Assembly (NCBI RefSeq): GCF_011397635.1
Contig: NC_064770.1
Span: 25,527,603 to 25,591,602, forward strand
Source of the DNA: Epinephelus fuscoguttatus
Lineage: Eukaryota; Chordata; Actinopteri; Perciformes; Serranidae
Length of the DNA: 64,000 bases
Direction of reading: 5' to 3'
Shown one piece after another: positions 8,740 through 56,767 of this stretch. The position numbers and the translations under genes are program-made. The notes under the pieces were generated by a model. The model saw nothing but the letters and a program-made list of their open reading frames with translations. It was not told where the DNA came from and searched no databases. The stretch's first letter is position 1; the number at the start of each line of letters is the position of its first letter.

Positions 8740-8820
8740 TTATGTACAGTATAGAGCAACTGCAGCGTGTCCTAGTTTCCCTGCAGGGATCAATAAAGTA
8801 CTCCTGATTTCTGATTCGAG
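8740..8820 (+). repeat. Short fragment of a fish retroelement 3' end
   Basis: Contains CCCTGCAGGGATCAATAAAG, which resembles the conserved 3' tail of a common fish retroposon that usually ends in an ATCT-type microsatellite. It explains part of an otherwise featureless 149-codon open frame on the opposite strand. The family is not assigned. Confidence 0.4.
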
Positions 8821-11145: not shown

Positions 11146-11640
11146 GGTGTTTTCACATCAGGGGCCTGACCCAAATCCAAGTACACTTGACCCCAAAGTC
11201 CAGTTTGTTTGATTCGTGTGAAGAATGTGTACCATACCCGGGCACAGATTGACAAACCTGTGTCTCAAGCATGGTCTCGAGTACGGTCCACGGTCCACGT
11301 GAAAAGCAATTGTACCAAAACACAGAAGTAGATGGCTAGAAGCAAGTAGCAGTCGGTGAGTACAGTTGCGAAGGCATTTCTCAGCACCACTGAATCTGCA
11401 TATGTGTTCTAGACATTGTCTCCAAAATATAAACAATAGTAGGGATAATGCGAAGGGCTTGGGATCTTGCAAGTGCCGTGCTTTCCTAGAGTGTAGCAAC
11501 AACATAAAGACATGTCACGTATGATGATGACGCAAATCGGGTACGGAACAACATTACTAACATTCAAGCTAAACAGCGAGGGAGGAGAGGTGGAGAGGTG
11601 GGGCAATCACACTTAGGTACATAAAAATGCCTACAGTGAG
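11146..11640. repeat. Dispersed repeat R3, copy 1
   Basis: Shares CACTTGACCCCAAAGTCCAG and the following GTTT.TT.GATT.GTGTGAA with a second copy at about 37755-38035. Both have a GGGTGTTTT-type end (at the left here, inverted at the right of copy 2), so a non-autonomous DNA transposon is likely. No coding capacity is seen. Confidence 0.5.
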
Positions 11641-12187
11641 CTTTATGACCAAAATACATGAAGCACAGATAGCACTTCAGCTAGGTGGGACAGAGAGGTT
11701 TTTACCTGCTACACAAAATCTGTCTCTGTAGCATGTGGTTGCGTACCACTTTACTGTGTAGGTGCTGAGTTTTGCCAGGTGATAATGCAGCTGGTTATGC
11801 AGCATTTAGAAGCATAGGTTATATTACCTGGGACTGATTTAATTAAATAGATTGTTTTAACTACAGGATGCATTGACTGATTTATTTTAATGTAGAATGT
11901 AAAAACACACACAAAGTTGCTCTGCTGCATCAAGTTGCCTTTAGGACAATGAGGTTTTCATTTTAATATTTTTTAAAGAGATTATAGTACTTGCTTTTTA
12001 CAAAGTTCCTTATGGGTTTAACCTGTTGGAGAGTGCAGAGAAAAAAACAAAGAGTGTCGAGCAGAACATTGCTCACATGGACAACCTTCGGTGCTCACGT
12101 GTAGAATCTGCAGCTGATTCTAATGGATGAACTCTGCTGTGGGCATGCTGCAGCAGATGTGTCGCACCACATCTATGCCCCATGTAT

Positions 12188-12335
12188 TTTCACTACTAGA
12201 GATGCTGGTCGGCAGATTTTGCCACCTTGTGACAGAACCAAGCTACATAGCTGTTTCCCGTTTCCAGTCTTTGTGCTAAGCTAAGCTAACCAATTGTTGG
12301 CTTCATACTTAGCGCAGAAACCTAAGCATGGTATT
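12188..12335 (+). repeat. Dispersed repeat R2 (TTTCCAGTCTTTGTGCTAAG family), copy 1
   Basis: Carries the core CCAGTCTTTGTGCTAAGCTA followed by AGCTAACC, then CTTCATA. Related copies, some inverted, occur near 14.4, 29.8, 34.9, 36.5 and 37.6 kb. This is a familiar interspersed fish repeat without coding sequence; its class is uncertain. Confidence 0.6.
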
Positions 12336-12739
12336 GATCTTCACATTTAACTTGTTAAATGTCAGACTGTTCCTACAAAGTTTGAAAAGATGACAAATAC
12401 ATCAAGATTAATTTTGATGCACAAGACATGTAGAATATTTCAAATTGATTTATTGGTGAAGTCGTAATGTGTGAATATTTCAATCAGTGTTGATGAAGAG
12501 TTGGATCCAAGTTAGATAAAACATATATTCCATACTGCCAGACAGTGAGGAATAAGGTGAAAGAAAGCTACTTATGGGGAAACAAAGGGTATAACTGCAT
12601 GTTAAATGGATTATATTTAGTTTGCTGCAACAATGAAGAAACCTTTAGTAGTTCTGTATTCATGAAAAAGTATTTGTTGTCTCATGGAGAGTCCATGACT
12701 ATGAGTGTGAAGGAGGAAAGGGCCTCCTGCTCCTCTTTA

Positions 12740-13260
12740 AGTTTCAAGTTTCCCCTTTACTTTAAGTTAAGCCATTTCAATCCACCCCCATTAAATGATC
12801 CCCATAATAAAACACCATTAATTGATTATTATCCAACAACAAGAGCTGCAAATGGCCTATCGCTGCCTGTCTGTCCCCTGTTTATCTATGTCTGATCAAT
12901 ACGTCTGTCTCTATATGACAGATTATTCACTGTGTGCACGTGTGTGTATGTGTGTGAGCGCACACACACATATGTGAGCACAGAGGTGTCGGTGTTTACT
13001 GATGAGAAACTAAACGCTCGTCTCCCTCTCCGTCCTCTCCTCTCTCATCCATACTCCTCTGGATTTGTCCTTCACTCCTTCACATAAGTGTCACTTCAGT
13101 AATTGACCATAAGTTCCCTTTCCATATTCATGAATAGTTAATGAATTGCGGCTCTGCCCCCTCTCTCTCATCGGGTCCCTATCTCCCTCATCACAATCTG
13201 TCTCATTATCAGAGAATCAATAAAAGCATTTTCTATCATAAATCTGCTCCTGTGTGTGGT
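12740..13260. other. Possible conserved non-coding element in hs3st6 intron
   Basis: A repeat-free stretch rich in homeodomain-like AT cores, for example TTAATTGATTATTATCC at about 12829 and CATGAATAGTTAATGAATTG at about 13129, separated by pyrimidine-rich sequence and a GTGTGTATGTGTGTG run. Such composition is common in intronic enhancers of developmental genes. The call is inference only; no conservation data are available. Confidence 0.2.
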
Positions 13261-14404
13261 GTGAGGAGAAACTGTAAACAGATCAGAGATGATTAACGTC
13301 TTGTCAATTTCTCATGCATGTAAATCTACTGTTTTGTTCTACAAATACAGCTCTTTAATTTAACATAAGGAAGAAATGCCTTTCAGTCTACTGTCACGCA
13401 AAAAAGAGCACACAAAGATGTTTTCTATTTAGCCCAGTATTTGGACAACATTGCTGACTAGCCACATTAGTCTGGAACTCCCTGCTGCTTTAAGGATGTA
13501 GCACTTTTCCTCCCTGAAGTGCTACACCGCTGATTACACCACTGATATCTTCTAGGCAGTCTGGATGAGAAGATTAAATACTAACCCTGGCAACAAGGAT
13601 GTGGCCAAGAGACTTCCTGCCCCCGAGATTATGGGTTCTCCCGCTGAAGTGCTGCAGCTACATCCCCTGTAGCGCCCTGACAAAAGGCACTCCGCACAGT
13701 AGGCAGAGCACACAAAAAGATCCCAAGAATCAAATTATCATGTCATTTTCTAAAAACAAAAACAGATCTAAATTTCCATGGGTTATTATAGTCATTTACT
13801 GGACCATGTACACTAAACACTGACTTGCTAAAGGAGACTTCTGCTTTGGCAGATGTCTCTATGTCCAATCGCTTTCAGAGCTAAAACCCAATTAACGAGG
13901 CATGTGGAAAATCAAGGTCGTAAAAATGAGAAGGAGAGCAAACAACAAACTGGAGGAAAACATTTCCCAGCAGTGCTGCTGTGCTCAGAGGGTGACAGAA
14001 GCAGCCTCGGGGGCCACGGACGGCCCATCAGGCTGACAGGATGAGTGTGGGAACCTCGATTTATGCCGTTGTGGCTAGATGAAACCAGGCTGTTCTCATT
14101 TACTGTTTGTACTTATACCTACAGAAAGTAATTCACTATAATTTGTATAAAACCCACTTAATCATGAGCCATGAGGCTGTGATCACGTAACCTATGTGCT
14201 GCAGGCTTTACTCCGTCAGCCAGGCCACATAGATTAAAGACTGTGTAGACAGGAAGGCTGAGGTTGTGGATGGGTCAAACATACACAGGACTTTGACCAG
14301 GAGACCAGGGTTCATTTCAGATGTGAAACCAAAAGTCAGGGTAACATCCCATCATTAATCTGGTCCTAAACCTAACCTTACCAGTAGGGGTGATTTGTAA
14401 TAGG

Positions 14405-14515
14405 CATAATTGTTTTCTTGCCGGGAAGTAGATGAGTAGATTGATATCAATCCCTGTCCAGTATACAGCTACAGCTAGCAGCCAGTTAGCTTAGCTAAGC
14501 CAGCTCAGTAACCAT
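14405..14515 (-). repeat. Dispersed repeat R2, copy 2
   Basis: Inverted relative to copy 1: TACAGCTAGCAGCCAGTTAG followed by CTTAGCTAAGCCAGCT. Degraded. It lies immediately before the tRNA-derived SINE at 14530. Confidence 0.5.
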
Positions 14516-14529
14516 TCATACTGTATGTT

Positions 14530-14677
14530 CTCACACACCAATTGAACAGCCATCGGGAGCATTTGGGGGTCAGTGCCCAAGGATACTTCAACATGTAAAT
14601 CGGAGGAGCTGGGGATCAAACCCCCAAACTTCCGATTGGTGGACGACCCCGCTCTGCCTCTGAGCCACAGCTGCAGA
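14530..14677 (-). mobile_element. tRNA-derived SINE (minus orientation)
   Basis: On the minus strand it begins with a tRNA-like head, GCAGCTGTGGCTCAGAGGCA, carrying an A-box-like TGGCTCAGAGG. A B-box-like GTTTGATCCC follows, and the body ends in a tail reading CCCGATGGCTGTTCAATTGG. Teleost genomes hold many copies of this SINE. Box spacing and flanking non-tRNA body rule out a functional tRNA gene. Confidence 0.7.
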
Positions 14678-15879
14678 GAAGTAGTATCAATCCTCAATCT
14701 AACTTTCTGCAAGGAGGGGAACACGTGGGTGAGTGTAACATTTCCCAAAATGTTAAACTACTGCTTTAAGTATAACCTGGGTGCCCTACAGTGACAAAGC
14801 ATAAAGGTTTGCTGTGAAACCACACCATCGACAGCGTTGATGTGATAAAGACCCTGCGCATTGCACACACAACAGGAGTCATCATTGTCTGTGGGATACC
14901 AAGGGTGAATGCCGCCATGCTGTCTACATGTTCTTTGTCTAAATTGAAACCTGAGCAATCGACGAGGCCTTAAAGTATCACTGAAGCCAAAGTTGGAGAG
15001 AAACAGAAATTAACGTGTAAAAAACCAAGTGTAGCCTGAGGACGGGTTTGACACTGAACATCATTATAAATAATATTTCACAACAGCTAGTGACACAATA
15101 TGCATTAGAGCTAAAGAAAAACTCAACACACAAACACACTGAAAACTTGATGACTGGAGGTGAGAGCCTGGAGGTCCTCTCACTATAGGCAGAGAGAGGA
15201 AGTGGATGGTTAGACCCCTCTGGGAAACCACATGACTGGCAGAAAGACTGTTGCCACCCACAGATTTTAAATACATTGTTATCAGCTGATTTTTTTTCTA
15301 CGAATAATGATGCAGTAATGGAGGAAGAGGAGGGTTTTCTCGACAGGAGGTTACCTGAAGTGCTATACTCCCACAGAGACTACAGTGTTTTACATTTTCA
15401 TCTTTGGTGGCTTACAGCAGGATACCACTGCAATGAGTCTGAATGTGCGTATGTGTGTGTGTAAGAGGGTGGGCGGGTGGTTAGGGGGTAAAGTCATGCA
15501 CATGTGTGGGTGTGTGGGCTTTTCTTAAAGGAAATGAAATACTTTTTGTTGGTCAGTAGCTAATTAGTGACTGCGTGGCTTTTGAGTGTCCAGTCATAAT
15601 TAGGAGATTTAACAGGACGTTAGTGATGCTTTGCTGGTGAATTCAGTAATGGCTTCAGCATTTGGCACAAGAAAGTAGCTGTGACACTTACCAGGCTAAA
15701 CTTCCAGATGGGTTGTTCTATGTTCTGTCCTTGTGCCAAAACCAATACAATACTTTTTTAAAACCTCACATTAAGGAACATGTTTTTTCTAGTCCAGCGC
15801 TTTGGTTGACACTGAATGTCTCAACAGCTACCGATTGGATTGCTGTTATTTGGTCATCTGACCCTTCGTCAGGTCAATA

Positions 15880-16240
15880 TTAGTCTGAGTGGGTGGAAGT
15901 TCGCTGCAAAGATCAGCCTCTCATTGGGCAAAACGAGCCACCCGCTGAAGTCCCGCCCTACCACCTCCGGTTGCAGTTTTCAACACGTCCTTTACTAACT
16001 TTTGCAGTGTTTGATCTTGCGGGGATGTAGCCATTTTTCTGCCATGGTTTGCGTCCTGTAGGCGATATTTTTGTGGGCGTGTTACACCAAAACCTGTTTC
16101 CCCCCCAGCAATATTTTTGTAAGCGCACCGTTGCTGTGGCACCGCCAAGAACGATTATGATTGGTTGAAAGAAATACAAGCAGCCGGGGCGTTTTTTTTC
16201 TCCAATCTTAAAGTGAGAGTCAGCCCAGCCAGACCTTTCT
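15880..16240. repeat. MITE-like dispersed repeat, unclassified
   Basis: GC-richer block containing CCACCTCCGGTTGCAGTTTT, several ATATTTTTGT-type motifs and GAACGATTATGATTGGTTGA. It resembles an abundant non-autonomous element of spiny-rayed fishes. The overlapping minus-strand frames (about 75 codons) are repeat sequence, not genes. Boundaries are approximate. Confidence 0.4.
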
Positions 16241-16486
16241 TTTCTTGGAAATCTGGAAACATCTAATCAAAGTATAAGTCAATAAGGCTGTGAATCTGAC
16301 AATCAAATTTCAGCACTTGTAGTTTTTGATACTTGATGCCACAGACACAATTTGTGCCCAAAACACAGTGATGTTTGATACCTAATCCTCTAACTGATAT
16401 TAGCTTGATGCTAAATAGAACTTGATGATTGTGGCTGTCTTGGTTGCTATGGGAATCAGATTCAGACTTCGCCTTTAGATGTGGAT
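16240..16486 (+). repeat. Direct repeat X, left copy
   Basis: About 245 bp that recurs at 17495-17730. Shared motifs are AAATCTGGAAA, GTGAATCTGACAA, GATATTAGCTTGATGCTAAA and TTTAGATGTGGATC. The two copies flank repeat R1. They could be a tandem duplication or terminal direct repeats of one composite unit. Confidence 0.6.
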
Positions 16487-17480
16487 CATAGATGTATTAT
16501 AGTTTCAGTTCAGAAGAGGACCCAAATGCAGATTCAACAGGCAGGTTTAGGTTATCAACAAAAGGCGAGCTTTGATGTAACTGATGAAGGATTTCCAAAT
16601 AAAGGCAGGCAACTCAAAAAAAAAAACCCATCTGTGCGCAGAACAAAAATCCAAACTAAAGCAGGAAAAGACATGAAGACCACAGATGATGAACACAGAG
16701 GGAACACAGAAGGTAGCCAATGGAGACGGACTGACAAAGGACAAAGGGAAACACACAGGTATATAAACACAGAAGACTAATCATAAGGATGAGACACAGC
16801 TGGAGAAGGAAGACATGGGCGAAAGGAGTGAGACAGGGATTGGCTGACAACAACGGTGGAGCAGACAAGAGTAATACAGAACAGGTGTGAAGGGAAGACT
16901 CAGGGAACAGGCAAGACATGACACATGAGGAGAGAACCTACAAAATAAAACAGGAAGCAGATTAAATATGAGCTAAACAACATGAAACAAGGAGCATAAA
17001 CAGAAAACTCAGAGACAAAGTCCACAAGATCACAGAATATGAGAAGATGTGTAATAATAACTCGATACTGAAATCAAAGATGGCACCTGTTAATTCCTAT
17101 GGGATTGCTTGGGAAAAGTTTCTAGCTTTCAGGTTTACTTCAGCAACATGCAGCCCCCAGTGTGCGCAGCCGTGTTTCTCCCACTAGCCCTTCCCCTGCC
17201 CTTAAGTTCCTGCTCAGCTCATTGTGATGACGTGGCTCTAGGAAAGTTTTACAAACATAAAACCACCATAGATCAAAAAGTCATAATACAAGGAGTCATA
17301 TCTGACTTCTGCAGTTCAAAGCGTCCTTTCAACAGTTTTATAGACGTCTGTGTTATAATGGTCGTCTATGGGGAAAATGTGTTTTGGGCAGTTGGGGATT
17401 TTTTTGTTGCAATACTGTAAGTGTACAAAATAGAAGCAAGGCTGAGCTGCGTTCCTGCGGGCCTGTGCAGGCTCACCGAG
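16487..17480 (+). repeat. Dispersed repeat R1, copy 1, interrupted by another insertion
   Basis: Left part reads GATCATAGATGTATTATAG. The right part resumes at about 17041 with TAATAATAACTCGATACTGA and runs to about 17480. The same unit occurs uninterrupted at its left end at 27807 (GATCATAGATGTATAATAAT) and inverted at 35183-35660. Motifs common to the copies include AAGATGGC.CCT, TTTCTAGCTTTCAGGTT and TGTTTCTCCCACT. No coding potential. Confidence 0.65.
16500..17040. mobile_element. Unclassified element inserted into repeat R1
   Basis: About 540 bp, beginning near GTTTCAGTTCAGAAGAGGAC and ending near ATCACAGAATATGAGAAGAT. It interrupts R1 exactly where the 27.8 kb copy is continuous, so it inserted after R1 spread. 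No terminal inverted repeats and no coding frame with a known domain are visible. The similar sequence CAAATGCAGA..CAACAGGCAGG is common in fish genomes; class unknown. Confidence 0.5.
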
Positions 17481-17494
17481 CCTCGCATGGCTGT

Positions 17495-17730
17495 AGACTA
17501 GCCATAAATCTGGAAATAATTAATCAAATAATAAGTGAATAAGACCGTGAATCTGACAAACAACTTTCAGTACTAAACAGTTTTTGATTCTTGATGCAAG
17601 GGACACAATCCGTGCCCAAAAAATCCAGTCCCTGTATTGATATTAGCTTGATGCTAAACAGAAAATTATGCTCCCATCATTATGAGAATCAGAGTCAGAC
17701 TTGTTCTTTAGATGTGGATCCATTCAAACC
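17495..17730 (+). repeat. Direct repeat X, right copy
   Basis: Second copy of the segment at 16240-16486, sharing GATATTAGCTTGATGCTAAA and TTTAGATGTGGATC. After the shared GATGTGGATC the two copies diverge: CATAGATG on the left and CATTCAAA on the right. Confidence 0.6.
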
Positions 17731-18899
17731 ATGTAATGTTTCACTATGTGCCTTATAAAAAAAATTGTTTTTTAATTTCCCAGTTGTAATATTTTATTTT
17801 CATTGGTTGCTCCCATCGGTTTTCTACCTCGTGTTATTCTTTCCTGGAAATAGCAGCCCAGCTGAGCATGACTACTAAATATCTGAAACATTTTACATTT
17901 GCCAACTGACACACAGTATTTTCCTCACTTGCTAACTGCAGTCCGGAGCTAAAACAGCACGACTGAAAGATTTTACAGGCGCCCCAAAATGCACCACAAC
18001 GCGCCTCAAATTATTATAATTCCCACCATATGGGGTGTGAGTGTGGGCCTTTTCAAACCTTATAACACCACCTAGACCCAACTCCAGCCAAAACCCACCA
18101 CCATTAAAACACAATACAACTCAACACTACAGAGACCACTTCCTGGTCTGCTACACTAATCAGTCGTGTTCAGCCTCTATCACTAATGGCCTCGGGGCTG
18201 GACACAGAATGAGGTGTCGGGAAAATCACCCTTGATCTGGAAAACGTTACTCCATTGCGCATTAGAGTCCACTTTCACCATTTCATCTGTCAGATATCCA
18301 AACTGACGTGGTAAGTGTTTGAATGTGACCTTCTGGAAAATACTGAGGTGAAACATGCATGAATGTGGTGCTGTGATGATTTAAGGTAAAACAAAGCACA
18401 GGACAGTTTCACCTACCAGTTAGAGCTTATAAACAAATCCTACTGATGGAGGTAAAACATATTATCGTGTTACTTAACACAATTAAAAAAGGAAGTGGTA
18501 ATTTTGAATATTAACTAGGCTATCAGTCAGTATCATTGTAAATCAGTTATTTTATATTCATAAACCAACAAATTACATACATGACTTTACAGACATATCA
18601 GACTTATCTTGGTTACTCAGACATAGATGAGGGGTCAAAGGACATGTTGATGTTTGGAAATGCTGATGTCAAACAATGTGATTTTTTTTTTTTTTTTTTT
18701 AAAAGTTAAATAAATCGTCTATTCTCCGTATTGCTACCATTTTGTAACAGATTCAAAAAGAAAATTGAAAAAAATAGTCAGATGTGGATTTATAGAAAAA
18801 TAGAACACTGGAAGTGGACAAGTAAAAGGATGAAGAAAATTTTGTGGCTTTAATTTGGGCAATCATCATCTTTCAAAAAGCATATAACTTGATGTATAT

Positions 18900-19092
18900 A
18901 ATTATTAGCAATCTTATTTTGTGTTTTATATGGCTGGCTTTAGAGCTTGACATTTTTATTGTGTATTTTTGTTCTATGTTGTATGTATGTTGCTGCCTGT
19001 CTTGGCTCTTCTGTCTTCACTCTTGAAAAACAGATTGCTAATCTCGAGAGGTTTTTCTGATTAAATAAAGGTTAAATAATAAAATAAAATAT
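18900..19092 (+). mobile_element. 5'-truncated LINE 3' end
   Basis: Ends with the familiar fish LINE tail: TCTTGAAAAACAGATTGCTA, then TCTCGAGAGG, then TTAAATAAAGGTTAAATAAT with AATAAA repeats. No intact reverse-transcriptase sequence is retained. A poly(T) run at about 18681-18701 lies upstream. Confidence 0.6.
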
Positions 19093-19447
19093 TGAAAGGA
19101 ACAGCAAATAGGTTTTGAGAGAAACATAATGCCGAGCAAATTATGTTTTCTATTAAAATCATGAGGAAATGTTTCTCATTATCATTTCTGTCAAGTCACA
19201 AATATGTTGATACTTAACAAATCAGCAAAATGTTCGCTTAAAACGTTTTTCAGCTGTTTTCCACCAAAATAGGCAATCTTGCAATACAGTATCCACTCGT
19301 AATGACTGCTTTTGTTGCCTAAATGTAATACGGGAGTCTAGATGCAAACCCTGGGTTCTGGTCCCTAACCCCAACCATCTCCTTCTAAAGCCCATGTGAT
19401 ACATAAATATAATGTTTAATTATCTAAAAGAATCATTGTCTCTGAAC

Positions 19448-20206
19448 TAGGGCTGCCCCCCAGTAGTCGACCAAACATTAGTTGACCAGAAAGGTTGTTA
19501 GTCAGCAAGATTTAATTGGTCGCTCAGCTGCAGAAAAAAAACAACAACAAAAAAAGTGAAACTATCAGGAGCTGGTCTTGTCAAAATACATCAAAACCTA
19601 TATAAGTGGGCCATGTGGGAATTTAATTTGAAACAGCAGACAATGGAAGTGTCCACGCTCAGCAGTCAGACAGGAGTCAGGTTAATTTCCAGGGCTGGTA
19701 CCTGCGGTTATTCCACAGGCTAGTTAATAACATGTCGGGCAGGAAATCCAAAGTGTGGGATCATTTTGAGAAGGTGAAGGACGAACCCAAGGTGATATGT
19801 AAACTCATCTTCATTGGTCGACTACAAATATGACGCATCATCTGAAACATGGAAGTAGCTACATGTCCATTAGCCACTTAGCAAAATCATTACTGCTTTG
19901 CCGACAGCGTCATTAACAGGCGGCTCGCTCAGTGTGTGACGTGCACTTGTAGATAAAATATAGGCCTATATTAATGAAGGTTCATTAGTACAGTTTTGTA
20001 TTTCTCTGTAATGTAGCACAGTGTTAACAATGTTGCTGATACTATTCTTTCTCACACCTTCAACTCAAACCATTGTGTTGCCCCGCCCAAAATATATCAT
20101 CTAATAATTAAATTAATATTGTAAACATGCAGGTGACTAGTTAACTAATGGCTCTAAATGACGACTACTGGTCAACTAGGAAAATTTTTAGTTGGAAGCA
20201 GCCCTA
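19448..20206 (+). mobile_element. hAT DNA transposon, internally deleted, with 8-bp target-site duplication
   Basis: Starts TAGGGCTGCCCCCC and ends GGAAGCAGCCCTA, so the termini are inverted repeats. The subterminal blocks (AGTAGTCGACCAA left, CGACTACTGGTCAACTAGG right) are also inverted. It is flanked on both sides by the identical octamer CTCTGAAC (19440-19447 and 20207-20214). An 8-bp duplication together with these ends is diagnostic of the hAT superfamily. At 759 bp it is too short for a full transposase gene. Confidence 0.9.
19732..19880 (+). pseudogene. BED zinc-finger remnant of hAT transposase
   Basis: Inside the hAT element the frame from ATG 19732 reads MSGRKSKVWDHFEKVKDEPK, then VICKL. 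This matches the W..F.......C first half of a BED zinc finger. The second half (histidine pair) appears in another frame as THHLKHGSS. The DDE catalytic core is absent. This is the DNA-binding N-terminus of a ZBED-type transposase, decayed and non-functional. Confidence 0.7.
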
Positions 20207-22722
20207 CTCTGAACATAACCCAGGCAGTGATTACTTTGCCACAACAACATAATTAAGAAAGCAGTAGCAACACACAAAACAGGGTTGAAAGCAAGAATAT
20301 AATCCCATTTTATCTTCATCTGTTGTCATCACTTCATATACATATTTGCAAAAGCCGATGTCTTTTTAAGGCCTGATGTAATTTTCAGCAGTGCTGTCAT
20401 TTCTCTTTGCCCTCGTGCTGCTGCCCTTAAAGGATTTATACTACATTTTAATAGCAATCCGATTGAGCGTGGCCTTTGGTGTCAAGACTGTAGGTCAGCC
20501 GATTGACAAGCTTTCCAAGTATTGATGGAACTTGTGGACTGGTGTTTTTCCTCATATAGAAATTCAGAAATGCATATTTTCATAAATCTATAAAGACTAA
20601 TCAGTAATTTGCCAGGATGCTGTTTTGGATCTGAAGCTGTGCAGCTGCATAGTGTTTGTCTCTTCCTGCTTTGAGACAACAACAAATGTTCTCACTTCAA
20701 TGTCATCCAGGTACTGAAGATGCGACAAATATATACTCCATCTATGAATTAAAATTCTAGCTCACATCATAGTGACAAAGCCGTGACAATCACAACCATT
20801 GTATCACGGAAAAGCCGGGGTTTTTCAGTCTTCTGTGGCGGCTCTCAAGTCCCATATGAAACCCATCACTCCATGAAGTCCCCATAAAGCCATAAAACAA
20901 CACAGAAATTCATTAAATCTTCGCTTCATTCTGAATGCACTATTTGTGGCTTTTCCATTCCCGTAATGGGCTCGTATGCACACATGCAAAGGAGGCATGG
21001 GGATGGAGAGAGACGGGGCTGGGTGGAGACTGACTGGATCACTCAAGATAAAAGCAATGGAAAACACACATGAATGAGGTCTTAGTTTGTCTCGCAGAAG
21101 ACAATGCTGCTGGAACAACATGCTTGGGAGGGCACTGCTGCTGCCGCGTCTGTGAAGTGTCTCCAGCGCAGAGATCGCCAAAAACTGACAGCAATATATG
21201 ACTGTGCACGACTCACATCCATCTGTTAAAATCGCCAACAGTTCGTGCTTATTTCTCCGTCCAAGACATGAGGACAGGCGGAGTATCACAATGCACCACC
21301 CGTTGTCAGATATGCTAATGTGAAACCATGTGTCTTTGGCAAAGACTTTTATTACTTATCCTGACTTGTCTGCAAAATGATTAACAGTCTACTAATTAGG
21401 AAGCATTTGAATATGTGTTTTTATATTGATTATGGCTGAAATACAAGCATGCAAGGGTCTGAAAGGGAGAATCGATAAAGTAATAAGACAATGTATGTTA
21501 ATTGGTTCTATCCTGAGATTAAATTAATGATCCAGTTAAACATTTATGCCCTTATGTGTCGTAGAAATATGATCCTGTGAGCTGCAGATGAAGCGGGAAC
21601 TTCAGAAAGATAGCATGTCAAAGCTCAGGGTTGCTTTTCAGAGTCTGTCATACACAGCAGCCTTGAATAAGAAAGTGTGTGTGCTGGCTTCCAGATGTGA
21701 CAGCGAGCTGACCCGCTGTTCACTGACAGTCAGTTGAGGAGGACTCGCTTGTTCCACATGACTGAGCTCTCGCTGTCACTGACACACACACACACATGCA
21801 CGCACACTTACACACTGTCCCAGTCCGTGACTTCCAGCGGCTTCTCTGTGGGTCACTGCAGATGACAGCAAACAGATTTCCCCAATTTCTGAGATTTGGT
21901 GACAACAAGGGACTCATCTTTCAGTGATTTCACCCAGGATCATGTTGCTGCTGTCACTATTGTTGTGTTAATCCCTCCAACTTTTCTCTGCCTTTCCAGC
22001 TAAGTTTACTTCTGTCCAAAATAGTAAACAGCCAACAAAATACTAGGGATGGGCATGAATACTCAAGTACTCAGGTTGTTAGTATTTCTTCAGCACATAG
22101 AGAAATAGCCGCCCACATATGAATATGACTTTAATAGATTTTCTTACTATTTAAAATGGGTAAAATCTTATTTCACTGTAGAGCTGCGTGCAGTGTATTG
22201 CTTCACTTAGCGTTTCCTTGCCCTTCTGTCACTCTCTCTGTTTATCATGACACCACTGCTGCTGGAGTGTGAGCTCCGAACCGGGGAGCAGTTGGTGCAA
22301 GTCCACACCCGCACACACACTTTTAGCATCATACAGATACTGTTAACAATTATTCATGGGTTAACTGACGGAGCTGTTTCGGTGTCTCTGTGAGTTTGTC
22401 GTGACTGTTAAATAAAAAAACTCGGTGTTGGATGAGCTGCTTCAGACTCTGGAGACAGTCCATCAGTGCTATGTCGAACCTATGTCACAGCAGCAACAGA
22501 AAGTTTGCTGGTTTCTCTTATGTTCACTTTAAATTTATGGTCTGATAGGTTAATTGAAGACTGGTTTAAATGAAATTGCCTGTTTTCCGCTGTTGGCCAG
22601 TTAAAATTCCTAATCTACCATTCATTTTTTTTCTCTCTCTCTCTCGAAAAGTAGCATTCGAGTACTATGTAAAGATTTAATGAGAGTACTCTCATGTGGA
22701 AGCCACATTAAATGCTCATTCC

Positions 22723-22769
22723 GGGGCGTCAGTGGCTTAGTGGTAGAGCAGCCCCTTGCTGCATGTCAT
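22723..22769 (+). mobile_element. Truncated tRNA-derived SINE head
   Basis: GGGGCGTCAGTGGCTTAGTG followed by GTAGAGC is a tRNA-like A-box region. It joins directly to CCTTGCTGCATGTCAT, a shortened version of the SINE body found complete at 28021-28192. The central part is missing. Confidence 0.6.
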
Positions 22770-24590
22770 AACAACTCTTTTGATAACTGATTAATATTTG
22801 ACTAATTATTTACAACAAAAAATTCCAAACATCTGCTGCTTCCGGCATCCAAGGATTAGTTGCTTTTCTTTGTCATGTACGACAGTCCAATGAATATCTT
22901 TGGGTTTCATGCTGTCAACCCAACAAAACAAGAAGCCTGAATACGTCATTTTCGGGCTCAAATTATATGTTGCAGCCCTTATTATGACTGATCTAAATTT
23001 CAGAGACCACATTGGTGTCACTGCCGTGTTACAGCACCAACAAAACTCCAGCATTAAAGCATAACAGCTTTACAGCACCAGTCAGGCTAATTAAAACACA
23101 CAGAAACACACATAAAACATGCCCTGGAAACACCAGGTCTGCCACAGGTATTTCCACATAAAGACATGTAGACTCAAAGAAGAGTAAGGAATAGTGAAGC
23201 TGGACGAAAGAGCAACGGAAAGTAGCGAGAGGGATGTAAGGAGACAGATGTAAGAGAGGAGTTGTGAAGGGAGCAAAGCGTTAACCTGCATGAGCATGTG
23301 ATGCATGTGTGTGTTTATGTGCACTGAGAAAAACAGAGAGGAAGCTTAGCAGCATGCTAAAATTATCAGTGGTGAAAGTGTTTCCATGTGTCCTTGTGTT
23401 TGCAGTTAAAACACAGCTAAGGGGGTTAAAAGCCAGGAGAAGATTAAATTACACCTCAGAGTTTCAAGTACCGTCATGCTATCAAAGTGCTTGCTTCAAT
23501 TAAATCTCACTTTCTCCTTATGGCACCTTTAACGCTCAAACATAGCACAAAATAGTGTTCATGCTAAGTTTGAGCTTAGCGGGGATCGAGTGTGGAGGGG
23601 ACACATATGAAACAGGGGGTTTGGGGGTCCTCAACCAGATAAATTTGAGCATCAAACACCTACTTTTCTGCATTCTGGTGACTTTTCATGCACCTTTTTT
23701 GTGCATTTACTGCTTCAGTTCATGGTGTATAAACCTTAATTTTGCAGAAATAAAAGTTCTCTGCTACTTTTGTGTTTAAACTGGTCGAAATATTGAGTTC
23801 CCTGCATCCACTCAGAAATGTCTGGGATGTTCTCTCTGAGCTTGTAGAACATCTGGAGATGATCAAGAACAGCTTCATCCAGACTCAAATCCTCCTTTAG
23901 GGCTTTAAATACACCCAAATGATAGCTCTGGTCAGTCTGGTCACCCCAAATCAGCTGCTGTCACTGTGACAGTAGCCGATTAACATTTTATGTGCAACAT
24001 CATTGTGACATGCAGCCAAGACCTCCAGTATACACCTGACAATAAGGGCTTAACGTCTCATATGTGGGAGTCATACTGGAGTGATGTTTGCATGAGTCAC
24101 ACTCAGAACAAGGGGAAAGCGTTAATACAGGATGTCATGTTGAAGGGTATAAATGATGTTTAGATGACTGTCAAGATGATGAACTGCTCCTCAGAGACCC
24201 CACTAGCCTTTTGATTCACAGTGCAGCATGCGGGGAGAATATTGGCTTATAGTGATCTGAATATATCAGCCAGCCATGTGTACGGCTGTCTGGTCTATTG
24301 ACAGGAGACATCAGCACTTCTGTACAGGTGACACCGCAGCTGCTCATCTGACCCTTCACCCTGCCATACATCATGCAGCACCGTCTGAGATGGCATCCAA
24401 AGCTTTAGTGTAAAGATTTAAAAATGTGCCTGTGGCGGATCTTCCTATGGGGGAAAGTCATCGATCTGTAGTTGTTGTAGGGCCTCTAGTCTGGGCATCG
24501 CAGTTCAACTTAATGTGTTCATCAGTGAGTGATTGTCACAGTCAGAACATGCTAGAGCATCAATGGGTAGGATGGAGAGCATTAGAGTAA

Positions 24591-25203
24591 AGCCCAGTTC
24601 AGACCAAAGATTTGCAACAAGACGAACGTTGCAGAGAAAAGTTGCAGTGGTGTGAACTGGCTGGTCTGTGCCAAACTCAAGCCGGCTGATAGTGTGTGAC
24701 CTGTTTCAAGGGCCAATCAGCCTGTAGCAAAGCCCGCAGGCCAATTCTGTCTGCAGATGCTGTGTGTGCCTGCTATGGTTGAGAACAGCCTTCCATCCTG
24801 ACTGAGGCCAAGTCCATCTCATGCACACACTCAGGGTTACTGACACATAAGTTGGTCTCCGTCCTTGTGTCTTCCTTCCTTCTTATACACACATACTCAT
24901 CCACTGATTATTTTGAGCAGTTTATTTAAATTATTGTGTTCTATTTATTATGAACATGGTCCATCTGAAGCTCAGGATGTTTTATGTTTTCACTGTTTCA
25001 TCACTACAGGAAATGCGACTGTAGTCAGTATCCTCATTCATATTTTAAGAAGCTACAAATATATTCTGCTACAAAATGAGCCTGAAAAGCTGGAAATCAG
25101 AGTAAAAGTGCAGAAAGCTGCTGCTATGAAGACGGTGTACTGTTTCGTTTTGCAAATAGTTGAAAGTTTTGTCCCAACACAAATCGCTGGTCTGAACTGG
25201 ACT
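24591..25203. mobile_element. Non-autonomous PIF/Harbinger-like DNA transposon with TAA duplication
   Basis: The left end AGCCCAGTTCAGACCAAAGA and right end ATCGCTGGTCTGAACTGGACT form terminal inverted repeats with about 13 of the outer 15 bases paired. The element is 613 bp and flanked by TAA on both sides (24588-24590 and 25204-25206). A 3-bp TWA-type duplication fits PIF/Harbinger. There is no transposase frame. Confidence 0.75.
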
Positions 25204-25599
25204 TAAGAAAAAATGAAAAGATAAAAGCCACCCTGGGCAAAAAAAAAAAAAAATAGAAGAAAGGAGAGAAAATTTGCAAATTATTATCATTTCTTAGCTA
25301 AGTTGATTATTTGTGTTGATTTCACACTCACTCTTATTCTTTATTTTAAGAAATACAAGATGATAATATATACAGTATATATTTTTAGGGGGTGGGGGGG
25401 ACGCAAGCTTGCCCAAGGCACCAAATGTGATAGGTCCGGCACTGTCACTTGTTATATTTCTTTTGAGACTCAAAGCACGACTGTGGTGAATTTCCATTAG
25501 TGAATTTAGAGTCGATTTAATGGTGTTTATGGCAGATTAAATCTCATTTTCAGACAGTGCTCAACTTGGATCTATGACCCAGGGACGAGAGCTGAAAAT

Positions 25600-25700
25600 G
25601 AACAACAGCTAAACTTTCTTTAAACACATAAGCCCCGCACTCTGTATTGGACCTATGTTAAATTGCCTTGTCCCTATCAAATAAAATAAAAAAATATTAT
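25600..25700 (+). repeat. Retroposon 3' tail fragment
   Basis: TTGGACCTATGTTAAATTGC followed by CTTGTCCCTATCAAATAAAA and a poly(A)-rich end looks like a retroposon tail. The family is uncertain. Confidence 0.35.
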
Positions 25701-25799
25701 GAGTTAACTTATTAGTGAAAAGTATAGAGGAGTTCTTGTAGCTGCCCTTCAGTTTTTATTTGCTGCCAAAATTGATCTAAAAAGGCAATCCATAATTGA

Positions 25800-25830
25800 G
25801 TGTGTGTTTGTGTGTGTTTGTGTGTGTGTT
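25800..25830. repeat. (GT)n-rich microsatellite at hs3st6 intron start
   Basis: TG-repeat run with interspersed TTTG, lying directly beside the exon 1 donor site; the gap to the donor is only a base or two. Confidence 0.8.
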
Positions 25831-25835
25831 CCCTA

Positions 25836-27190
<1,355 letters not shown>

Positions 27191-27192
27191 AG

Positions 27193-44230: not shown

Positions 44231-44241
44231 TGAAGCCAACA

Positions 44242-44290
44242 TCCATCAGCACTCCAGAGCTCCATCAGGCTTTGCCCCGGAGCACTTCAT
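44242..44290 (-). promoter_or_regulatory. msrb1: SECIS element of msrb1 copy A
   Basis: Stem-loop in the 3' UTR that recruits the machinery for decoding UGA as selenocysteine. On the minus strand, the core ATGA (44290-44287) is followed by 13 bases, then the apical AAA (44273-44271). A GCC..TGAT..GG mini-stem comes next, and the descending strand ends at TGATG (44248-44244). AGTGCTCC pairs fully with GGAGTGCT, allowing G-U pairs, and GGGGC pairs with GCTCT. This is the form 2 SECIS layout. It lies 47 nt past the stop codon. Confidence 0.9.
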
Positions 44291-44336
44291 CCACTGTCCA
44301 CACCTTCAGCAGCAGGAAACAGTCTTCTCTTCTCTT

Positions 44337-44927
44337 TCACAGCTCACCTTTCTGTCCATCAACCTTTTCTGCGCAGAGGGACAAAGCCGAATCAAACAGT
44401 GGGTTCAAGGTGCGTGATGAGGGTGCACTGTAGTGTATGTGTGAAACATGGACTCACCTTTAGGGATGAACGTCAGTGAGCTGCTGAATATTCAGAAGCG
44501 TGATAGCCCCTCTCTTGGTCCGTCATACAGAAACTCATGGCCTAATCCGTTGCCACACTTCCCACAACAAACCTGGGATATTTAAACTATGATTTTTAAA
44601 CTTAATGGATCACAAGAGTAATAACAGGCATAGTGTTCAAGTGAATCTACCTTGATGGGTCCCCATGCTTCAGGGTGTTTGGAGACACTGTCCTCGTGGA
44701 TTGTCTGTGAGAAGGCTGGCCATGGAGAAGAGTGCTCAAACTTTGACGTGCTGGAAAATAACTCGTGCCCACATTCTGAACACACATACATACCTGAGAG
44801 GAAAAATGTGTCAGTGAAAGGACAGCTTAAGAACCATTGACTCTTGGGACTTTCTGCATCTTTGATACTCACCGGGTTGGAAGTGATTTTTATATTCTTC
44901 TCCACCAGAGAAAGAGCAGTATGACAT
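44337..44927 (-). CDS. msrb1: Methionine-R-sulfoxide reductase B1 (selenoprotein), tandem copy A
   Basis: Reduces methionine-R-sulfoxide in proteins, using selenocysteine as the attacking residue and thioredoxin as electron donor. Four exons on minus: 44873-44927, 44651-44793, 44458-44572 and 44337-44368, all with GT-AG borders and phases 1/0/1. The product has 114 residues (human MSRB1: 116). The resolving Cys4 (MSYC) is present. Two zinc CxxC pairs sit at 23/26 and 69/72. HSSPWPAF and [12 protein letters not shown] are conserved, and RFUIFSSSL contains Sec93, encoded by TGA at 44494-44492. The C-terminus is [10 protein letters not shown]. Introns are only 79, 78 and 89 bp. An in-frame ATG nine bases upstream (44936) would add MDE; I chose 44927 because the family starts MS[FY]C. 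Divergence from copy B includes SFSGGEE for SFFGGEV and Cys68 for Arg beside the zinc pair. A standard gene finder would stop at the TGA and miss the last 21 codons. Confidence 0.93.
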
Positions 44928-45339
44928 TTCATCCATGTCAAATGTCTCTGTGTTTTAAAACCAAATGTGATTTCTCTGTGGTTTGAAGCATATGTTTACA
45001 AAGAGTCACCGGCTTGAGCTGGAGCAATCCTGCACAACAAGATCAAGTGACAGCAGCTCTGTCCCTGTTGTGTAAGGTCTGACCTTGTTCCCATTACTGC
45101 CACTTGATGGCAGTGTTGACATCACTGGGCAGTAGATGTAGACTGTTCAGTCAACCAAAAATGTGTTATAAACTTGTAAGAAACATTGTGTTAGATGTAG
45201 GGGGATTTTGTAAAATCCAGCAATTAGGATTGCAGATTTCAACCAGCTGAAACATCTCCTGAGTAGGATTCCTTCAGTGGTTTGTGTTCAGGAGGTTTTC
45301 AGGGGGAACCAAATTATCCACAGAGGCTGCAGGTAACTT

Positions 45340-45730
45340 GTGCTCACTTGTTCTTTCTGATAGCTTCATCTTATTTCTGATCTAGACATTCAGGAAGTTT
45401 TTACCAGGAGAGGAATCATCCACAGAGGTCTCCTCATTTCCAAAACAAACAGGCCAGGTTATTTAAACTGTTAAAAACACTGAATAAAGCAGTTTCACAT
45501 TACAAGTCAGTGTTTCTCCAACACTGTTTGGCACATTGGAGATGGGCTGCTAACCTAGCACCTGCTAATCTGAGCTCATCTTTTTTCTCTGATAATTTAG
45601 GATTCAAATGTTCAGGAGCCTTTTACCAAGAGCTAAGTTATCCGCAGACGTCTCTTCCTCTTCAAAACAAATGGAGCCGGTGATTTAAACCAGTAAAAAC
45701 ACTGAATAAATCAGATAACATAAAAAAAAA
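45340..45730. repeat. Degenerate direct repeat, two units
   Basis: Unit 1 (to about 45500) and unit 2 (about 45570-45730) share TTCAGGA..TTTTACCA.GAG, TCCKCAGA.GTCTC, CAAAACAAA, TTTAAAC and AAAAACACTGAATAAA. The spacing is about 230 bp. An old dispersed repeat in tandem, or a local duplication. Confidence 0.55.
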
Positions 45731-46556
45731 AACAATTTCCTAATGCTCATGCTCATGAAAACATGAATGGAGAGCCAGTGTTTGGTTTGTCTGATCTGCG
45801 CAACTTTACCAGTGGATGAGGACCTGCTCCCGGTGTAGATATAAACGGCTTACTCTAAGGTAACGAACAATGATTCACATTTTCAGATGATTATACACAA
45901 AAGAAAACACACATTGTATTTCATTTCTACCAATATATCCCCCTAAATCCTGCACATGATCCTTAATTGCTAAATAAGTGTATATATTTTAAAAGAGCAT
46001 ATTACATTCTCGTCTCTAAAGAGAGAACGGTACTTCCTCTAAATTCTGACACCAGACTTTTTAGGGCCACAAGGCTCAACCGGAGAACCAGTTCAGTCCA
46101 GAACAAGTAACTCATTTGCCTTAGTTGTTTCAGTACCGACTTAGTTGTATTCCATGTGTCCATAAATAGAGTGAAACTATTCAATAATAATAATTATGGC
46201 AACTAATATCTGATAGAATGATTTAGAGCCCCAAAGGCTTGATTGAACATGTTGAGGAACTCTTGTTCCGTGGTTTGTCAACCTATTACATCACAGTATG
46301 GTTTCTGAGTGCCCTCAGTGCAACACTTTTCTCAATGTCTGATGTGATTTGTGGCATTCATAGTATGGTTTTGTTGTTTGGTTAAGTGTTTTGTAATTTA
46401 GTATTTACGTGTATTTATGTGAAATTGTTGACGTCATTGACAAATTTCAGATTTTCTTTCTGATGATAAAGTGACATTAAATCAATCAGTCAAATCAAAA
46501 CAAGAATACAGACATCAGCTTATATTCAGTCTTTTCTAATTTTAATTTAAAATAGA

Positions 46557-46562
46557 TTTATT
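46557..46562 (-). terminator. msrb1: Candidate poly(A) signal of msrb1 copy B
   Basis: AATAAA on minus, about 470 nt past the SECIS of copy B. Plausible position; not proven. Confidence 0.3.
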
Positions 46563-47027
46563 TCAGTTTGCATAATAGTCATTGGGATCATTTACATAAA
46601 GCTTCTCAATAGTGAAAATAGTATTATTACTGATTCCTGCATGGCACACCAATCAGCAGGTAGAGGCAGTTGTCGATGAATAAATTAAAAATATAAATCA
46701 GGACCAATCCTCATGTGCTGTAGTCTTGGATTCACTGTCTTGTGAGCTATTTTTTTCTAACAGACTGGTGCGCTTGTTTGTTTACTCTGACAGTTTGGGG
46801 GAAACAGGAAAAACTGTGAAGGTAAACAAACATGATTTCTCTCAGTAAGAAATAGCTTACAGAATTGAGGAGCCTATTGTACCCATGAGACGATCTCAGT
46901 CATTAATAAATATGCAGCTGGTGAGACGTTGTGTAATCAGCGAGGCTATCCTGAGATGGTGATGATTGCATAATAAAACGGTGCTGAGACCAGTCCTCTG
47001 TTCTTGCCGTTCAGTGTGGCCATCTTT

Positions 47028-47076
47028 CATCAGAGCCCTGGCGCTCCCAGTTGGGCTTTATCCCAGAACACATCAT
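47028..47076 (-). promoter_or_regulatory. msrb1: SECIS element of msrb1 copy B
   Basis: Same geometry as in copy A. ATGA (47076-47073) is followed by exactly 13 bases, then AAA (47059-47057), a GCCC..AACT..GGG apical mini-stem, and a descending strand closing at TGATGA (47033-47028). CTGG pairs with CCAG in helix II, with further G-U and G-C pairs. It lies about 60 nt past the stop codon TAA. Conserved geometry with diverged stem sequence indicates selection on structure. Confidence 0.88.
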
Positions 47077-47137
47077 CCGCTGTCCACACCTTCAGCAGAG
47101 CAGAAAGACTCCTCCAAGTCCCCTCAATCAGCTCACT

Positions 47138-50100
47138 TTACTGCCCATCAACCTTATCTGTGGAGAGGGGGCAAAACTGTCACAGGTTGTACAGCCAATG
47201 CGTCTGACCTCTACTTTGTCTTGATTAGGCCGACACTTAACTGCTGCATAATTAAATACAGAGGAGGTTTACAGCAATTGTAATTATCTGTCCCCTACAA
47301 ACTGTTCTGTCTGTGAGCACTGTGGGGACACTTACATTTAGTCCACCTTGCCTATTAAAGAAATACATTGGACCCATGCAAACGTCTCTAATTGGTTGCA
47401 GATTGATTTAATTAGGGGCACAAAAAAATCTAAGTTTAGAGTGTGTCTTTTCCTTTCAATATTTGTTAAATAATTAGTGTACTTGAAATCTGTGTGCTCA
47501 ATGGAAATGAGGAAAGATATTAAGACTGATACTGGCTTTTTTAAGCCGAGACCAACATCATAAAACACATCAATGTGAGCCAATAGTCGCTTTTATACAA
47601 AAACACATAATATAATCAAACATTTTTAACAAGCATCATTTAAATTTGTTTTTTTTGTGAAGAGTTGTGACATAGATATGTGCTGAATGTGACATTTTAC
47701 TGTTAGAAAAACTTGCCTGTGCTGGTGGATAAATTTAATGTATACTGGAGACATATTTTTGGCATTTCTATACTGCAATTTCTTGTTGTTGTTCAGTGGA
47801 CAAGCATACTGCTACTTTTACTTGCATCTGCATGAGCTAATATCGGTTGATGTATTGGCCCAGCTGATTATCGGTCAAGCTCTACATGGCATCAGCTGTA
47901 AAACTGGTATTTCCGCATTCAAAGCGCCAGCACAACACAAAGTCAGTGTACCAGGGCAGAAACAGCAGCTGCAACCTGGTGTGATAAATTAACTGTTGTA
48001 CCTTTAGGGACGAACTTCAGTGAGCTGCTGAATATTCAGAAGCGAGACAGGCCTTTGGCTGGCCCATCATTCACAAACTCATGGCCGAGTCCATTTCCAC
48101 ATTTCCCACATCGTACCTGGAACAAGACACCAGACATCTGAATCAGGATTGTGTGCATTTCGATGTAGTCAGCAGTTATGCGTTAAACAATCACTACTAC
48201 TTGCTACCATTAGCCACTGTACCACTGTACCTTGTATGCCCCAGGTCTCTCCTTATGTTTAGATACACTATTCTCATGGATGGTCTCTGTGAAGGCCGGC
48301 CAGGGGGACGAGTGTTCGTACTTGGAACGGCTGGTGAACAGCTGGTGATCACACTTGGAGCACACGTAAATCCCTGAGGAGTAAAGGATAGAAGATGAGT
48401 GTTGGTTTACAACATGAGGAGAGAACTTGTTTTGGATGAGCCTGGCACAGACTTGACATCAAGGTGCGAGTGATAACAACTGTGGCAAATAGCATAAATA
48501 TGGGGAAACTGGAGTGGTCTAGTTTTACTAATGAAGACGTTAAGAAATATACTTCACATGCAGACACTTTGCTGGGAAATACTGAACTGACTAAAGATGC
48601 TATAAGATGTGGTAATGTGAAGTGTAGTAACCCACAACACAGTATTGATTTATGTGGGGGTTTTTTTAGTCTATTGTGAAGTCGCTTCATATCACCAGTC
48701 AGCCTTTTTATGAACCTGAGTCTCAGAGATATAATATCAAGCCTGGCTGGAATGAGTATGTGTCAGAGCTCTGAGCCGAAGCTAGAGCAGCATTTAAAGC
48801 ATGGGTAGAGACAGACAAGGGCCCTTTGTTTGAACAGAGGAAACATGCAAACGCAAATGAACAAGGAAGAAGAATTCTATGAGATCTGACTCATTGGCTA
48901 CAAGGTTGCAAAATAATAGTTATGATGACTTCTGGAGAGAGAATGGGGCTACAAACAACTGCAAAATGTCCTTACAGGCATACATTGATGGAGCCAGTGG
49001 TTCAGATTAAATCTCCCAGATGTGGCAGCAACATTATTATGAACTGTTTAATCATATTAAGAAGAATACTTTTGATGTCGGTATTATTGATTCTGATTAA
49101 TATGTCGTTTTAATATAGAGATAAAGAGGTTCACTCTGCTGTTGTGGTTTTAGGTGGCAATAAAGCATGTGGAGCTGATAAGATAACTGCTGAACATCTA
49201 AAATATGCTGCCAAAAAACTTTGCCCCTTGCTTGCTATCGGTTTTGCTGGGTTTAAGTTCATGGAACTCTGCCTGACTCCATCCTATCTGTTTAATTAAT
49301 ACCTGTTATTAAGGACAAAGGTGGCAAAATAATAGCATGGGCAATTAAAGGCCTATAGCAAGAAGCGCTTGAGAGAATTCTCCTGAACACGCTGGAAACA
49401 CACATCACTACCACTGACAAACAGTATGGTTTCAAATGTAAACATGGCAGTGATGTGCATTTTTGCTTTAAAGGAAATTTTAGATAAATATAATCGTCAG
49501 AACTCAACAGTGTTTTTGTGCTTCACAGATGCCTCTAAGCTTTCAATTGCATTAATCATCAGTCTATGCAGGTTAGATGGTGGGGCTCTGTATTTGAACC
49601 ATTTCATGTCAGTAACAGATTTCGAAAGGGCAGAATTTTGTCTCCTTTTCTTTTATAATGTGTACATGGAAGATGTGTCCCAGCAGTTGAATGCGTGTGA
49701 TACAGGTGTATGGTAGGCGATAGTTTAATAAATCATCTTATGTATGCAGGTTATTTGGTAATCTTCTGCCCACATAGTGCTGGCCAACAACAGCTGTTGA
49801 AGATTTGCTCTGACTATGGCTGCAGACAATTATAGCGCCAATAAAAGCAACTTTATGACTGTTTGAAGTACAGTAGACAGAAAATTAATATTTTCTTATA
49901 TTGCTCTTACAGTGTGTAATGAGATGAAATATCTCGGCCACTATACTGTCAATGATTTATTTGATGATACAGATATCCACAGACAGTGTTGTTAATTGTA
50001 CATGCAAGCTAATATGCTTGCTCGCAAATTCAGCATGTGTTCAGTGGATGTGAGGACAGCTCTGTTTAGAGCATTTTGTACCCTGCTGTATACTGCCCAC

Positions 50101-51028
50101 ATGTGGCTCTCCTACAGGAAGAGCAACATGCAAAGTCTTAATATGGCCTAAAATGATGAAATGGGACTGCTTCTTAAACTTATTAAAAGTTTGTAAATGT
50201 CAGTGTTCCTACCTGCCCTACTTTAATATCAAATCTCATATATCGATATATGTGCAGCTTCTCTGTTTAGCTGAGCTCAGTCAGGCTTTCATCGAGACTG
50301 TGGGGCCACTGGCTCTCCAGCTTGTTTGTGGGTGCGGTTAATTCAATTTTATCTTTTTTTATATGAACTTGTATAATGTAGTGTTGGATATTTCCTGGCT
50401 TTTTATATATATATATATATTATGTTTCTTATATTGCATTTTGGTACATAGATACCAAAATGCAATATCACTGTGTCCTTAATAAGTCATTAATATTATT
50501 ATTATTATACCACCTAATGGTTATTTGTTGGTATCCTTTTATCTATGACGGTAGAAATAATTTTTTATTGATTGTGTTGCATTTATAGTTGTTTAAAGGT
50601 GTATTTTTCAGAGGAAGTCCAACTTCTTACTTACTGGAAACAACAAACACTTTGTAACATAGTTATTGTGTAACCTGAGCAGGGTTACAAAACTTGACAA
50701 GCCACCAATATATTTACTTATTATTATATTAACTATGTTAACTAACTTAGGTCAAACTCTCCTTGACGTTTTTATTGGTAGTTACGGCCTGCATGGACAG
50801 GAGTGGATGATTTAACTCGAGCCAAACGGTTTTTAAGTTATTTGGGGTGACAATGACTAGTTAGCTAACATTGGCTAGCTGGTTATCTTTAACTAACGTT
50901 ACACGTTAACAACACAGCATAAGTTAAGCCGACATTTTGAATGAAGTACAAGAAGTTAAAGTAATGACGGTACCTGTTTCGAAATGGTCTTTATAGACCT
51001 CTCCACCGAAGAAACTGCAATACGACAT
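47138..51028 (-). CDS. msrb1: Methionine-R-sulfoxide reductase B1 (selenoprotein), tandem copy B
   Basis: Same enzyme family as copy A and probably the more conserved copy. Exons on minus: 50974-51028, 48231-48373, 48002-48116 and 47138-47157, with GT-AG introns of 2600, 114 and 844 bp and the same phases. The product has 110 residues, starting [19 protein letters not shown]. Key sites are Cys4 (resolving), zinc CxxC pairs at 23/26 and 69/72, [25 protein letters not shown], and Sec93 encoded by TGA at 48038-48036 within [14 protein letters not shown]. The C-terminus is DKVDGQ; the next codon is TAA where copy A has AAA, so the tail is four residues shorter. Intron 1 carries a LINE fragment, which accounts for much of its length. 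Upstream of the ATG an ETS-like ACCGGATG lies near 51.13 kb (minus). Acts in cytosol and nucleus in mammals; assumed here. Confidence 0.93.
48465..50340 (+). mobile_element. Degenerate non-LTR retrotransposon (LINE) in intron 1 of msrb1 copy B
   Basis: Lies opposite to the host gene. Translated pieces run in LINE order: a pre-RT region ([20 protein letters not shown]; then [16 protein letters not shown]), a linker ([20 protein letters not shown]), reverse transcriptase ([37 protein letters not shown]; a decayed YADD block) and a post-RT part ([30 protein letters not shown]). Many stops and shifts interrupt it and the endonuclease is not recognisable, so it is an old 5'-truncated copy. A shorter piece of the same family is at 55149-55403. 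Clade not assigned. Confidence 0.75.
50431..50468. repeat. Perfect 16-bp hairpin
   Basis: ATATTGCATTTTGGTA, a six-base loop, then its exact complement TACCAAAATGCAATAT. It follows an AT dinucleotide run at about 50405-50421. It lies inside msrb1 copy B intron 1, just past the LINE fragment. Confidence 0.8.
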
Positions 51029-56765: not shown

Positions 56766-56767
56766 AC

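Follow-up and report, generated by a model that had tools for sequence, protein, structure and literature searches.

A tandem pair of msrb1 selenoprotein genes in Epinephelus fuscoguttatus with a predicted hairpin after the selenocysteine UGA

How did two neighbouring genes for the selenoprotein methionine-R-sulfoxide reductase B1 (MsrB1) come to lie side by side in the fish Epinephelus fuscoguttatus, and what keeps their otherwise diverged coding sequences so alike just past the UGA predicted to encode selenocysteine (Sec)? The pair occupies positions 44242..51028 of a 64,000-nt stretch of the genome, here called the window. The explanation that we favour, with modest confidence, couples an old DNA-mediated tandem duplication of msrb1 with a hairpin, resembling a selenocysteine redefinition element (SRE), that would form after the UGA in both mRNAs. 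The post-UGA hairpin looks to be the part worth following; the two genes look functional, yet appear to be long-separated duplicates of a selenoprotein that is already known.

Two intact neighbouring msrb1 genes of the selenoprotein type, copies A and B, are present in the window:

44337..44936, minus strand: coding span of msrb1 copy A (exons 44936-44873, 44793-44651, 44572-44458 and 44368-44337), from the gene model and a Pfam match
44492..44494, minus strand: in-frame TGA of copy A, the predicted Sec codon, within SRF-U-IFSSS
47138..51028, minus strand: coding span of msrb1 copy B (exons 51028-50974, 48373-48231, 48116-48002 and 47157-47138), from the gene model, a Pfam match and structure matches
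48036..48038, minus strand: in-frame TGA of copy B, the predicted Sec codon, within SRF-U-IFSSS

They show the adjacency, shared orientation and shared gene structure of a tandem pair: each has four coding exons, they are arranged head to tail, and about 2.2 kb separates the coding spans. The coding sequence (CDS) comprises 117 codons and a TGA stop in copy A, and 110 codons and a TAA stop in copy B. The three introns sit at identical positions with phases 1, 0 and 1, and all six are bounded by GT...AG. Both reading frames run uninterrupted, except for the single TGA, up to the later stop. Their translations contain MSYC, with Cys4, and CGKC, while the first CxxC motif is CSEC in A and CSKC in B; we take the CxxC pairs to bind zinc and Cys4 to be the resolving residue. 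The Pfam family SelR matches both proteins (5e-22 and 1.6e-22). A search of solved structures, made with B alone and not A as the query, placed mouse MsrB1 (2kv1, 1.6e-53) and human MsrB1 (3mao, 1.9e-45) at the top, ahead of MsrB2/B3 and bacterial MsrB. Thus, the original prediction of two complete head-to-tail four-exon genes is borne out by the gene models, the matching intron phases and the SelR matches, and its further claim of a TGA at the RFUIF position with both CxxC pairs and Cys4 in each copy agrees with the translations.

Given the intact frame and splice sites, the zinc and resolving cysteines, the TGA and a candidate selenocysteine insertion sequence (SECIS), both copies are predicted to encode a Sec-containing MsrB1, whose expression and enzyme activity we infer. 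They resemble vertebrate MSRB1 (SelR/SelX), including the fish MsrB1a and MsrB1b, in the SelR fold, the position of Sec, the two CxxC pairs, Cys4 and a SECIS candidate in the 3' untranslated region (UTR), and also share the four exons reported for most mammals in the relevant part of Mariotti 2012 (PMC3316567). They differ from it in being tandem genes, in lacking two residues that mouse and human MSRB1 have near residue 58, and in their C-terminal tails, that of B ending in DKVDGQ. A retroposed origin of either copy is ruled out by the retained introns, and decay of copy A into a pseudogene by its frame, its splice sites and a low ratio of nonsynonymous to synonymous divergence (dN/dS). A tblastn search of the window with A and B detected no third copy, all matches outside the pair having E >= 0.2. 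Two further observations concern the non-coding parts of the pair. Intron 1 of copy B is about 2.6 kb long and holds, on the plus strand at 49128-50340, a stop-riddled stretch that by eye resembles a decayed non-LTR (lacking long terminal repeats) reverse transcriptase, where the one open reading frame (ORF) scanned gave a chance-like domain match only. Between the two copies lies a short direct repeat (45389-45492 and 45611-45714, 76%).

A stable stem-loop is predicted directly 3' of the Sec UGA in both copies, when the spliced mRNAs are modelled without their 5' UTRs:

44340..44483, minus strand: post-UGA hairpin of copy A, in spliced RNA only (44483-44458 of exon 3 joined to 44368-44340 of exon 4)
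47129..48027, minus strand: post-UGA hairpin of copy B, in spliced RNA only (48027-48002 of exon 3 joined to 47157-47129, that is exon 4 and the first bases of the 3' UTR)

The predicted hairpin is 55 nt long, begins 8 nt past the UGA, crosses the exon 3-4 junction and consists of a 9-pair outer and a 10-pair inner helix. The 70 nt that follow the TGA fold at -27.1 kcal/mol in A and -26.6 kcal/mol in B, which is extreme against dinucleotide shuffles of the same segment (z -5.1 with none of 1000 as low in A; z -4.4 with one of 1000 in B). When folds were scanned along each mRNA in steps of 10, the window of the scan just past the UGA ranked lowest in both, among 43 in A and 45 in B. Shuffling synonymous codons, with weighted and uniform usage respectively, gave folds as good in 4 and 2 of 2000 cases for A, and in 7 and 0 of 2000 for B. 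The 60-nt core by itself reaches z -4.58 in A and -4.66 in B, with 0/200 shuffles as good in either, and its 19 pairs retain a pair probability of at least 0.91 when placed in 236-265 nt of context. Neither copy lacks any of the 19 pairs; three of these are altered by A/G changes that retain the pairing, and A and B agree in 49 of the 55 hairpin columns.

The same segment stands out in the comparison of silent sites. Among degenerate codons that specify the same residue in A and B, all 14 in codons 91-108 are identical, against 29 of the 63 in codons 1-90 (Fisher 1.4e-4); codon 109, which lies within the hairpin, carries a silent difference that keeps its pair, and its inclusion makes the count 14/15 (Fisher 9.9e-4). 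At the level of bases, A and B agree at 52/55 sites over CDS positions 271-325 (41/43 in the exon 3 part and 11/12 in the exon 4 part), compared with 187/270 before them. We propose that these silent sites are nearly frozen because the arms of the hairpin lie in coding and 3' UTR sequence. The conserved block might instead stem from gene conversion or serve splicing, having nothing to do with recoding; this would account for the step in identity from 187/270 to 52/55 and for a block that straddles a splice junction, and yet we think it improbable. Exon 4 stays conserved while intron 3, which separates it from exon 3, yielded no match apart from a few terminal bases; since conservation thus resumes across an unmatched intron, conversion is disfavoured, as a single tract would not pass over the intron in this manner. 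Splicing signals, for their part, would lead one to expect neither 19 pairs spanning the junction, with pairing retained at 3/3 of those that changed, nor extreme folds in both copies.

If the hairpin forms, the mechanism may be pictured as follows. Each mRNA would fold the 55-nt structure after its UGA, to be completed only once exon 3 has been joined to exon 4. The hairpin would then act in the manner of an SRE, by delaying the ribosome or hindering termination at the UGA, with the consequence that the SECIS-directed Sec-tRNA might be used more often. A precedent for such an element is presented by SELENON, whose SRE is likewise a stem-loop right after the Sec UGA that is conserved beyond the need of the protein. 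The msrb1 hairpin differs from it in crossing an exon junction, in taking in the terminal TAA in the case of B, and in being known here from a folding prediction. SREs are described, in the section of a review that deals with them, as structures downstream of UGA-Sec codons that have been tested in SELENON (PMC8704476); the corresponding part of another account states that the SELENON element promotes UGA recoding, that the presence of a SECIS enhances Sec insertion, and that SREs have been identified in many selenoprotein genes (PMC4561486). A 2022 paper that also studied MSRB1 mRNA refers, in its passage on these elements, to the SRE of SELENON and to predicted ones in SELENOT and SELENOO, MSRB1 not being among those named there (PMC9496622). 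A literature search pairing 'codon redefinition element' with MSRB1 found nothing; the founding SRE papers lay outside that search, so an earlier listing is possible.

The other element needed for Sec insertion, the SECIS, is a hairpin of the form ATGA, stem, unpaired AA and TGA in the 3' UTR. The candidates of the two copies are:

44245..44290, minus strand: SECIS core of copy A (ATGA ... AAA ... TGAT), from a pattern scan and a fold test
47029..47076, minus strand: SECIS candidate of copy B, homologous to that of A, from the alignment with A

A SECIS in copy A is supported: ATGA is followed by a stem of 13 pairs with AAA in its loop and then by TGAT, and the fold reaches z -2.50, equalled by 3/200 shuffles. 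The 3' UTR segments downstream of the two stops align, and the alignment together with the retained core letters makes a SECIS in B likely by homology with A. The ATGA lies 112 nt from the Sec TGA in A and 115 nt in B, and 46 nt from the stop codon in A (TGA) and 61 nt in B (TAA). Our home-made geometric pattern yielded 6 minus-strand and 11 plus-strand candidates over the 64 kb, including that of A and missing that of B, so that the pattern by itself proves little. In the mRNA of copy A, UGA stands at the Sec position and again as the final stop (44337-44339), while that of B ends with UAA. Sec insertion requires about 51-111 nt between the UGA and the SECIS, so the second UGA of A, with its 46 nt, may be too near to be recoded.

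How old is the pair? The two proteins are 74.5% identical. Over the aligned CDS, dN is 0.16-0.18 and dS 1.1-2.0, and over codons 1-90 LWL85 gives a dS of 1.74, NG86 and YN00 returning no computable value; silent sites between A and B are thus near saturation, and both copies look to be under purifying selection. Comparing the DNA of 43000-46900 with that of 46900-51400 gave three matches: one covers exon 1, another exon 3, and the third exon 4 plus the 3' UTR; exon 2, the introns and the flanks showed no match between A and B in that comparison. Over 106 shared sites, A and B agree at 78, B and mouse at 80, and A and mouse at 72. With near-saturated silent sites, DNA matches restricted to exons and the 3' UTR, and an A-B identity no higher than that of B with mouse, the lineage-specific, recent tandem event that had been originally predicted finds no support, and A and B look like old duplicates. 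A recent duplication with a fast-evolving copy A would fit the head-to-tail arrangement, the greater number of differences peculiar to A (14 sites, against 6 peculiar to B, in the three-way comparison with mouse), the 12 sites at which A and B agree against mouse and the absence from both of the two residues near residue 58, although three sequences leave such sites unpolarised. The five copies reported for the large yellow croaker, in the portion of the L. crocea genome paper that bears on MsrB1, could also be cited for it (PMC4383535). Against it stand the silent-site divergence, intron and flank similarity that was not found, and a copy B no nearer to A than to mouse, which together render it very unlikely. 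Copy A would be the faster-evolving one if mouse is the outgroup, the tree of A, B and mouse being unrooted. Wider searches were uninformative as to relatives in fishes: prokaryote genomes yielded 2 bacterial loci related to B and no fish sequences, and viral contigs contained no relatives of B and no match to a degenerate pattern built on the DNA that surrounds the UGA.

On the old-duplication view, an ancestral msrb1 would have been duplicated locally, by a DNA-mediated event long ago, beside a heparan sulfate 3-O-sulfotransferase gene, which is found on the same strand of the window:

7441..26489, minus strand: heparan sulfate 3-O-sulfotransferase gene, from two stop-to-stop ORFs (25833-26489 and 7441-8100) carrying its exons

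We tentatively call this gene HS3ST6; for its C-terminal ORF the nearest among solved structures is HS3ST3A1. In the goat and human gene lists, as far as the relevant entries of the two sources go, HS3ST6 and MSRB1 are placed close to each other, being listed as HS3ST6, RPL3L, MSRB1 (PMC9902602) and HS3ST6, MSRB1, RPL3L (PMC7170856). A local duplication at the ancestral msrb1 locus fits the same-strand 3-O-sulfotransferase neighbour, as HS3ST6 lies near mammalian MSRB1, and the tandem layout suggests that this duplication was an old one. As to copy number, two msrb1 genes are ordinary for fish: the same part of the L. crocea paper gives two MsrB1 genes for other fish and five (MsrB1a-e) for the large yellow croaker (PMC4383535), the latter thus likewise having more than one MsrB1 selenoprotein gene, though in five copies, and msrb1a and msrb1l.1 are named in a passage on the Atlantic salmon (PMC10451801). 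Our search for literature joining msrb1, tandem duplication and teleost found none.

Several points have to be set on the other side of the scale. The support for the hairpin comes from two sequences, paralogues of one genome, in which no pair is changed on both sides, and with two rows the shuffle control on the hairpin pairs is uninformative (500/500). The limits of the conserved block were picked after inspection, and a longest-run permutation gives about 0.003. The expectation of a SECIS in each copy holds for A and is weaker for B, where ATGA, AAA and TGAT persist in alignment with those of A while the fold has z -1.24, 22/200 shuffles being as good. The SECIS family of Rfam was unmatched, both over the window at the gathering threshold and over 43800-51300 up to E=10, the Rfam scans giving four weak, chance-like matches. 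A, B and mouse are three sequences that cannot be rooted, and they give no order for the duplication and the fish-tetrapod split. Finally, the A-B distance is large enough for the age of the teleost whole-genome duplication. This last point favours a different origin, in which A and B are the ohnologues MsrB1a and MsrB1b of that duplication, later juxtaposed or misjoined by the assembly. In the part of Mariotti 2012 concerned with this family, every bony fish investigated is reported to have the MsrB1 duplication, with whole-genome duplication given as the probable source of MsrB1b (PMC3316567). Nevertheless, the two genes share a strand, lie about 2.2 kb apart and have a 3-O-sulfotransferase gene nearby as at mammalian MSRB1, so that relocation would be an extra step, and we regard the ohnologue origin as doubtful. 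The old tandem duplication with an SRE-like hairpin in both mRNAs hence remains our preferred explanation. A bolder extension of it, which we offer tentatively and do not ourselves expect to hold in full, is that fish msrb1 mRNAs carry an unrecognised, splicing-dependent SRE which runs across the final exon junction as well as the stop codon and has survived in each member of an ancient tandem pair, and that fish MsrB1 duplicates stem at least partly from that tandem event.

The remainder of the window contains some further features apart from these genes:

57351-58235 and 59664-60485, plus strand: two tandem C2H2 zinc-finger gene pieces, 71% identical over 776 aligned DNA positions
51631-52350 and 56160-56852, minus strand: ORFs that by eye resemble the reverse-transcriptase tails of long interspersed nuclear elements (LINEs), without a Pfam match
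27162-27488: possible foldback element, an imperfect inverted repeat with 75% self-complementarity across 335 aligned positions

The implications of the pair are twofold. The tandem arrangement provides a testable alternative to the genome-duplication origin that has been assumed for fish MsrB1b. Should the hairpin prove genuine, MSRB1 would be added to the selenoprotein mRNAs with a recoding aid beside the UGA, and the presence of two diverged natural copies in a single genome would offer ready variants for measuring that recoding aid and the SECIS together.

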